NCBI GenBank assembly: GCA_003161435.1
Contig: PMOS01000020.1
Span: forward strand, 145,439-209,438
DNA: 64,000 bases
Reading direction: 5' to 3'
Origin: Vulcanimicrobiota bacterium
GTDB taxonomy: Bacteria; Vulcanimicrobiota; Vulcanimicrobiia; Vulcanimicrobiales; Vulcanimicrobiaceae
Under the pieces are notes generated by a model, which saw only the letters and a list, made by a program, of their open reading frames with translations, was not told where the DNA came from and searched no databases. This document shows positions 60,217-60,437 of this stretch, piece by piece. A program made the translations under genes and the position numbers. How positions within the stretch are numbered: the stretch's first letter is position 1; the number at the start of each line of letters is the position of its first letter.

Positions 60217-60246
60217 TTGACGGAGCCGCCCCCATTCTGCTACGGT
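60217..60246 (+). promoter_or_regulatory. Probable promoter of the metYX leader
   Basis: TTGACG (60217-60222), 18 bases, TACGGT (60241-60246). The leader-peptide ATG is seven bases after the -10, so transcription should start at the ATG. Confidence 0.5.
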
Positions 60247-60253
60247 CCCGGAC

Positions 60254-60328
60254 ATGGACGCCCGTTCGATGGCGATTATGGCGATGTGTGCCACCCGCGA
60301 GGGTCGGTGTAGATCGTCGTTGCCCTGA
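60254..60328 (+). CDS. 24-aa Met/Cys-rich leader peptide
   Basis: ATG GAC ... TGA encodes MDARSMAIMAMCATREGRCR, then SSLP. Four Met and two Cys in 24 codons, three Met clustered with Cys (SMAIMAMC), ahead of methionine biosynthesis genes with a terminator between. This is the layout of ribosome-mediated attenuation. Too short for the ORF track; the apparent leaderless promoter supports translation from this ATG. Confidence 0.65.
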   Translation: MDARSMAIMAMCATREGRCRSSLP

Positions 60329-60383
60329 TCGGCGTACGACAAGCTACAGCGGCCCTCGCCTCTCGGCGGGGGCCGTTTCGTTT
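60297..60383 (+). terminator. Attenuator: intrinsic terminator with competing pairing
   Basis: Terminator: CGGCCCTCGCC-TCTC-GGCGGGGGCCG (60350-60375; 11 bp, one G-U), followed by TTTCGTTTCC. GCGAGGG inside the leader-peptide gene (60297-60303) is exactly complementary to CCCTCGC of the terminator (60353-60359), offering an alternative pairing. The metY ATG is at 60438. Confidence 0.6.
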
Positions 60384-60437
60384 CCCCGCGTTTTCGAAAC
60401 CCCTATGCGCTCGACGCATTCGTGAAGGAGACCCACG

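Follow-up and report, generated by a model that had tools for sequence, protein, structure and literature searches.

Leaderless short open reading frames (sORFs) rich in cysteine codons act in mycobacteria as Cys-responsive attenuators (Canestrari et al. 2020, as described in PMC9031893 and PMC13236596), and a comparative study of Actinobacteria found the mycobacterial Cys-rich leaders to be without terminators and recorded none ahead of methionine operons (PMC1262725). The leader peptide of the C. glutamicum ilvBNC operon begins 1 nt from the transcript start, has no ribosome binding site and forms part of a three-hairpin transcription attenuator (PMC11857589). The usual RNA control of methionine genes in Gram-positive bacteria is exerted by the SAM-I riboswitch (S-box) and the T-box (PMC1262725), and methionine genes are usually reported to be under SAM riboswitches or repressors.

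In the window (the whole stretch of DNA analysed, 64,000 nt) the genes metY and metX are preceded by a leader that resembles the mycobacterial polycysteine leaders in its apparently leaderless short ORF, in its codons for the amino acid of the downstream operon and in its link to sulfur amino acid metabolism. It differs from them in combining Met with Cys codons (theirs being Cys only), in belonging to another phylum, in its explicit antiterminator and intrinsic terminator (the mycobacterial Cys leaders have no conserved intrinsic terminator; PMC1262725), and in the proposed level of control (transcription attenuation, as against the translational attenuation described in PMC13236596). With C. 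glutamicum ilvBNC it shares the transcription-attenuator design and, to judge by its geometry, a leaderless-type start, whereas the codons and pathway of ilvBNC are branched-chain and the phylum is another one (the ilvC and ilvA leaders described below are the nearer parallels). With the enterobacterial trp, his and thr attenuators it shares the succession of control codons and of 1:2, 2:3 and 3:4 pairings, whereas those leaders have a ribosome binding site and the metYX leader has none; it differs from SAM-I riboswitches and T-boxes in that it encodes a peptide. The attenuation mechanism itself is known, while the Met/Cys sensor and its wide use in the phylum appear to be new: no report of a Met-codon or Met/Cys attenuator, or of attenuation in the phylum, was found in the literature searched, in which subscription journals were thinly covered. 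The nearest relatives of metY in a collection of named genomes belong to 'UBP12' and Candidatus Eremiobacterota MAGs, and the phylum is accordingly taken to be Vulcanimicrobiota/Eremiobacterota. The original prediction had called the leaderless version unusual, a view that needs tempering in the light of the mycobacterial (PMC9031893) and C. glutamicum ilvBNC (PMC11857589) precedents.

Promoter, leader peptide and their conservation in the genus

We read the metYX leader as an attenuator of transcription that would work through a ribosome on a leaderless leader peptide and would sense methionine and probably cysteine; on the sequence evidence set out below we put the probability of this reading at roughly 0.86. 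The genes and the 5' part of the leader are as follows:

60217-60246, + strand: promoter, TTGACG (60217-60222), 18-nt spacer, TACGGT (60241-60246), read in the sequence
60254-60328, + strand: leader peptide sORF, 24 codons, MDARSMAIMAMCATREGRCRSSLP, TGA stop at 60326, leaderless geometry
60269-60289, + strand: control codons Met6, Met9, Met11 and Cys12 (a Met/Cys run retained in 11 leaders)
60425-60430, + strand: Shine-Dalgarno site of metY, AAGGAG, read in the sequence
60438-61736, + strand: metY, O-acetylhomoserine sulfhydrylase (homocysteine synthase); NF006096, 751.6 bits against a cut-off of 726; PF01053
61733-62794, + strand: metX, homoserine O-acetyltransferase; PRK00175, 327.3 bits, just under the cut-off of 331, and the best family by far

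On re-reading the sequence, the TTGACG-N18-TACGGT promoter and the 24-codon ORF with four Met and two Cys codons (Met1, 6, 9 and 11; Cys12 and 19 of MDARSMAIMAMCATREGRCRSSLP) were found where the original prediction had placed them. The promoter is absent from the list returned by a strict sigma-70 consensus scan; in the alignment of 11 leaders TTGAC, the TA..GT frame of the -10 box and the ATG are invariant, and the alignment breaks down 5' of the -35 box. The ATG (60254) follows the -10 box by 7 nt in the window, the interval being 7-8 nt in all 11 leaders and 6-11 nt (counted from a -10-like box) across a wider set of 46 leaders, none of which has a Shine-Dalgarno site before the leader ATG. 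Because of this geometry we infer that the leader ATG lies at the transcript start, or about one base from it at most, and that 70S initiation would occur on a bare 5' end. Further downstream the start of metX overlaps the end of metY, the motif CGCATTCGTGAAGGAG is retained in 9 of 10 metY leaders (with one variant), and none of the three metY-like paralogues in the window's genome has such a leader.

With a search of 60 relatives, the leader is now known from every genome of the genus that was covered (11, i.e. 10 others and that of the window), before metY in 10 of them and before metX in one (G002), with scattered weak matches outside the genus. The comparison of related leaders that had been proposed together with the prediction was run on these 11, and the small ORF, its Met/Cys codons and the stems proved to be conserved. 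The peptides comprise MDARSMAIMAMCATREGRCRSSLP, six close versions of it, MDRRPAMMMMCCSPRGTV, MIAHSREMMSMCAASRGPV, MNRRSLAMMMCCCSPRGTV and MSRRLVAMIMAMCAVPRGPV; besides the start each contains 4-8 Met and Cys residues, in runs that differ in sequence (MAIMAMC, MAMMAMC, AMMMMCC, AMMMCCC, MMSMC, AMIMAMC). As a background, 2.34 Mb of one genome of the genus contain 4400 ORFs of 17-30 codons that begin with ATG, and 42 of these (~1%) have at least five Met and Cys besides the start; Met/Cys composition by itself is the weaker evidence, and conservation is what decides. The distance from ATG to Cys is 30, 33 or 36 nt in 11 of 11 leaders (i.e. a multiple of three), length changes ahead of the Met/Cys run likewise come in multiples of three, and one-base changes are found solely downstream of it, where both of the frames that they create end in a stop (TAG within TGTAG, or TGA/TAG 14 nt further on). 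The tail of the peptide consequently switches frame between relatives (REGRC... vs PRGTV-stop), the shared part being the Met/Cys content only. Such frame-preserving length changes and retained stops are as predicted for a translated control region and not for an aptamer.

Competing helices and the terminator

The 3' part of the leader holds four regions that can pair in alternative ways:

60287-60311, + strand: 1:2 hairpin, region 1 (60287-60296) with 60301-60311, hiding region 2 (MFE fold)
60297-60312, + strand: region 2, 5' arm of the antiterminator, GCGAGGGTCGGTGTAG, extending to TGTAG
60344-60359, + strand: region 3, 3' arm of the antiterminator, CTACAGCGGCCCTCGC, its 3' part being the 5' arm of the terminator
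60348-60383, + strand: intrinsic terminator 3:4, 11-13 bp stem, tail TTTCGTTT

The terminator core is the 11-bp stem of the original prediction (60350-60375, its end separated by 62 nt from the metY start codon at 60438), extendable to 13 pairs (60348-60377), and folds at -27.4 kcal/mol (z -5.0). The complementarity claimed between GCGAGGG and CCCTCGC is present and longer than had been stated, 15 of 16 positions of GCGAGGGTCGGTGTAG being complementary to CTACAGCGGCCCTCGC; the corresponding 2:3 hairpin (60299-60360) folds at -37.6 kcal/mol (z -5.3). As part of region 3 is shared, antiterminator and terminator are mutually exclusive, a claim that is now supported by the folding, by the conservation of paired cells and by the changes in one relative described below. 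Across the 11 leaders 95.5% of cells are paired in the 1:2 helix (slid controls 34-56%), 96.4% in the 2:3 helix and 96.5% in the 3:4 helix, as against 26-59% in the slid-partner controls for the three helices together. The 2:3 helix is stronger than that of dinucleotide shuffles in all 11 metYX/metX leaders, and no stronger than shuffles in 12 leaders of the wider set of 46 (mostly sulfonate and sulfite-reductase ones).

Changes on both sides are found at three pairs of the 3:4 helix and at one pair of the 2:3 helix, in which formal covariation is weak because most of its pairs are invariant. In genome G008 region 2 reads GGGTTGG for GGGTCGG, region 3 GCAACCC for GCGGCCC, and region 4 GGGTTGC, i.e. 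the changes in the three regions are coordinated so that both competing helices are retained; its neighbour G003 carries the region 4 change only, tolerated as G-U. The assignment of the terminator to the upstream modA-like gene was set aside, that gene being divergent on the - strand. By eye, this neighbour (59343-60158, - strand) reads as a molybdate-type ABC substrate-binding protein, and an ORF at 57869-58849 is lipoprotein-like, with a long Pro/Thr repeat and an ice-binding-like C-terminal part.

Leaders of the same plan before other genes

A covariance model of the leader was run over 117 genomes of the class, and as a second route a terminator pattern was applied to the window's genome (7 sites; none in the reversed control); genome G005 was surveyed by a terminator-first scan of 2.34 of its 3.51 Mb. 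A pattern of ATGATGTGCTGT followed by a terminator was too specific, with no match in 149 genomes. The resulting table of 46 leaders, whose members were partly chosen by hand, is descriptive and not a test. Its common architecture consists of an sORF of ~18-31 codons, region 2 in or just past the 3' half of the sORF, and a CCCTCGCC-type terminator, which begins 90-118 nt after the ATG. Representative leaders are:

hom, window's genome, Thr/Ile codons: MAAYRAILSIAITTTTTMTTLCEGRSRSTLP
ilvC, window's genome, Leu/Ile/Val: MSARLLVLVIGVLLAVPLNRRAAFA
aroA, window's genome, Phe/Trp/Tyr: MSPSAFWYRRYYGCTKSVSVEFGIA
sulfite reductase, window's genome, Met/Cys: MSLFCCRMMVCPTGFLIRR
ilvA, G005, Ile: MLRCALVIIAGSIIAAPPSRRVVSA
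prephenate dehydratase-DAHP synthase fusion, G005, Phe/Trp/Tyr: MAVTSWFYRYFYAECAALRRGRPLP (gene L208:527-2305)
SsuA-type sulfonate binding protein, G005, Met/Cys: MPNAASFLAMCMCCLPRPGVG
sulfite reductase, other genus, Met/Cys: MFSAHAIMMMCCISPLRGSA
metY, other genus, Met/Cys: MNGPAGRCQTMKTSMLCLLREVV
sulfonate binding protein, other genus, Met/Cys: MTCRPMAMCMAMCCTPRCR
hom-metY, other genera: MFATTTAMMSMCCMQSNAARAVMERTPV, MFATTTAMMCSMCRMQMRTAWVVMESTV, MFVDRAPMMCSMCRCMQMPTARIVVRSRN

Judged from the sequences, the composition of the putative peptides matches the downstream genes across the set. Within the family, Met/Cys leaders lie before metY, metX, hom-metY, hom-metX, sulfonate-transport, sulfite-reductase and cystathionine gamma-synthase genes, and stand-alone hom has a Thr/Ile/Met leader; the Thr/Ile-rich leader of hom resembles thrL. 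Neither the 1:2 hairpin, the reach of region 2 to TGTAG, the use of the same device at other sulfur genes, nor the hom, ilvC and aroA leaders had been part of the original prediction.

The hom leaders follow the operon in which the gene lies. In the window's genus metYX and hom are apart, with a Thr-rich leader at hom and a Met/Cys-rich one at metYX; in other genera hom is joined to metY in a single operon (in L289 to metX), headed by one leader before hom that is Met/Cys-rich and often has additional Thr. The difference (Met+Cys) minus Thr is larger in the eight hom-metY/metX genera than in the three stand-alone ones (one-sided Mann-Whitney p 0.02, a small sample in which kinship is ignored). 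Taken together, these observations make it likely, in our view, that in one family of bacteria leaderless leader-peptide attenuators of a single architecture control amino acid synthesis in place of SAM riboswitches and T-boxes, that they include the first methionine-codon attenuator, and that the rearrangement of operons is accompanied by a matching change of leader codons (Met/Cys where hom shares its operon with metY or metX, Thr where it stands alone). If this is true, elongating ribosomes can read the supply of Met even though proteins also start with it, and leaderless initiation supports classical attenuation well beyond Actinobacteria. The replacement of riboswitches by attenuation in the phylum, and the tracking of operon content by leader codons upon rearrangement, thereby become testable questions; moreover, many unannotated small genes are identified, whose codons predict the response of their operons.

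The leaderless-attenuator device is not universal, since six searched genera (L285-L288, L290 and L291) have hom without a detectable leader. In these, metY lies downstream of hom in five, and a conserved TTGACGCACC...TATAGT-type promoter with a conserved start LSLTHPAHADRT occupies the place of the attenuator. Several candidates were set aside. The covariance matches L125-L128, L130, L132, L134, L151 and L153 were judged false, as they lack a leader, a terminator and a suitable gene. In G005, what looked like a Lys-rich 'leader' at 322842 forms the end of a longer ORF whose terminator is an ordinary one, and at 1128363 a terminator precedes an ABC-F gene without any leader. Two genera have a G+C-rich terminator, of the CCCTCGCC type or similar, ahead of a gene resembling spermidine synthase (L013, L131; G005:614049), and L131 and L013 were left uncounted as leaders, the terminator there being without a clear leader peptide. 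Before a gene with a weak, sub-cut-off ATP-grasp match (RimK-like), L148 carries the Met/Cys-rich leader MNACCEKMACCMSPLLGSA; this gene is possibly an unrecognised sulfur gene.

A proposed attenuation mechanism and its alternatives

In the model that we propose, a 70S ribosome would load directly onto the leader ATG at the 5' terminus of the RNA and, when charged elongator tRNA-Met or tRNA-Cys is scarce, would wait at Met9, Met11 or Cys12; region 1 would then be covered, 2:3 pairing would block the terminator and metYX would be transcribed. When Met and Cys are ample the ribosome would translate on across region 2. Once it has left the RNA, or if translation never began, the 1:2 hairpin would hold region 2 and 3:4 would terminate transcription. 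For the metYX leader we infer the stalling, the direction of the response and the dominance of Met or of Cys; severe Met starvation might lower initiation at the leader ATG and so lead to termination.

The original prediction had noted that a ribosome stalled at Met9-Cys12 could also mask GCGAGGG. In 11 of 11 metYX/metX leaders the last Met/Cys codon ahead of region 2 has its first base 7-10 nt upstream of that region. Given the standard ribosome footprint, this spacing would keep region 2 accessible during a stall at a Met codon, and a ribosome at Cys12 would cover the first bases of region 2 only. The objection is thereby largely answered. Constraint folding of the window's leader with the ribosome footprint blocked (an equilibrium calculation, and as such a poor model for a kinetic switch) gave a terminator probability of 0.99 for the naked full-length RNA, an antiterminator probability of 0.87 with Met11 in the A-site, the terminator for a stall at Met9 or Cys12, and a terminator probability of 1.00 with the ribosome on the stop codon. 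Prior to the synthesis of region 4 the 2:3 helix formed in nearly all states, that of the stop-bound ribosome included. As the stop of the window's frame (60326) lies 14 nt past region 2, a terminating ribosome would leave the 5' half of region 2 free, and the OFF-state geometry in this frame is without a clean explanation from the model; in L008 and L009, whose frames end at the TAG of TGTAG, a ribosome on the stop codon prevented 2:3 pairing in the folding (0.00). These calculations lend partial support to the attenuation model.

It is possible, if doubtful, that the same leader is chiefly a cysteine sensor like the mycobacterial polycysteine leaders, with its Met codons secondary. Nearly all Met/Cys leaders place Cys codons beside region 2, MetY consumes sulfide, the sulfonate and sulfite-reductase genes provide sulfur for Cys, and leaderless polycysteine attenuators are established (PMC9031893); yet the Met codons of most metYX leaders are equally conserved and outnumber the Cys codons, leader L021 before cystathionine gamma-synthase contains Met codons and none for Cys, and the constraint folding favours the Met11 A-site stall.

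An untranslated leader that acts as a riboswitch (for SAM, methionine or a similar metabolite) and contains an sORF by chance would agree with the high sequence conservation, with the strong alternative structures and with the common control of such genes by riboswitches (PMC1262725). We regard it as very improbable, given that the conserved feature is the in-frame Met/Cys content and no fixed sequence, that leaders of the same plan swap to Thr, Leu/Ile/Val or aromatic codons as the gene changes, and that no Rfam family (other SAM/SAH riboswitch families included) reached its gathering score in the metYX leader or in 16 other leader loci. Furthermore, covariance models of the SAM-I riboswitch (RF00162) and of the T-box (RF00230), which matched their positive controls, found neither in 117 genomes of the class. 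The sole Rfam match over metYX, 6C RNA (RF01066; 60308-60381), was sub-threshold (32.9 bits against a gathering cut-off of 47, E 0.37) and was judged to be a resemblance of G+C-rich two-hairpin structures.

We give equally little credence to a promoter followed by an ordinary terminator whose partial leakiness sets a basal level without amino-acid sensing: the naked RNA does fold into the terminator, but the conservation of region 2, the Met/Cys run and the match of composition to pathway in many leaders would be left unexplained. An action of the leader peptide in trans, like that of peTrpL of Sinorhizobium meliloti, has precedent only in its favour (PMC7298713) and seems least probable of all, the tail frame of the peptide differing among relatives and the Met/Cys content alone being shared, although an added role would still be compatible with the attenuator.

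Beyond the attenuator itself, the segment immediately 5' of metY (CGCTCGACGCATTCGTGAAGGAGACCCACG, 60404-60437) is near-invariant in the genus (one variant, L011), to a degree that exceeds the needs of a ribosome binding site.
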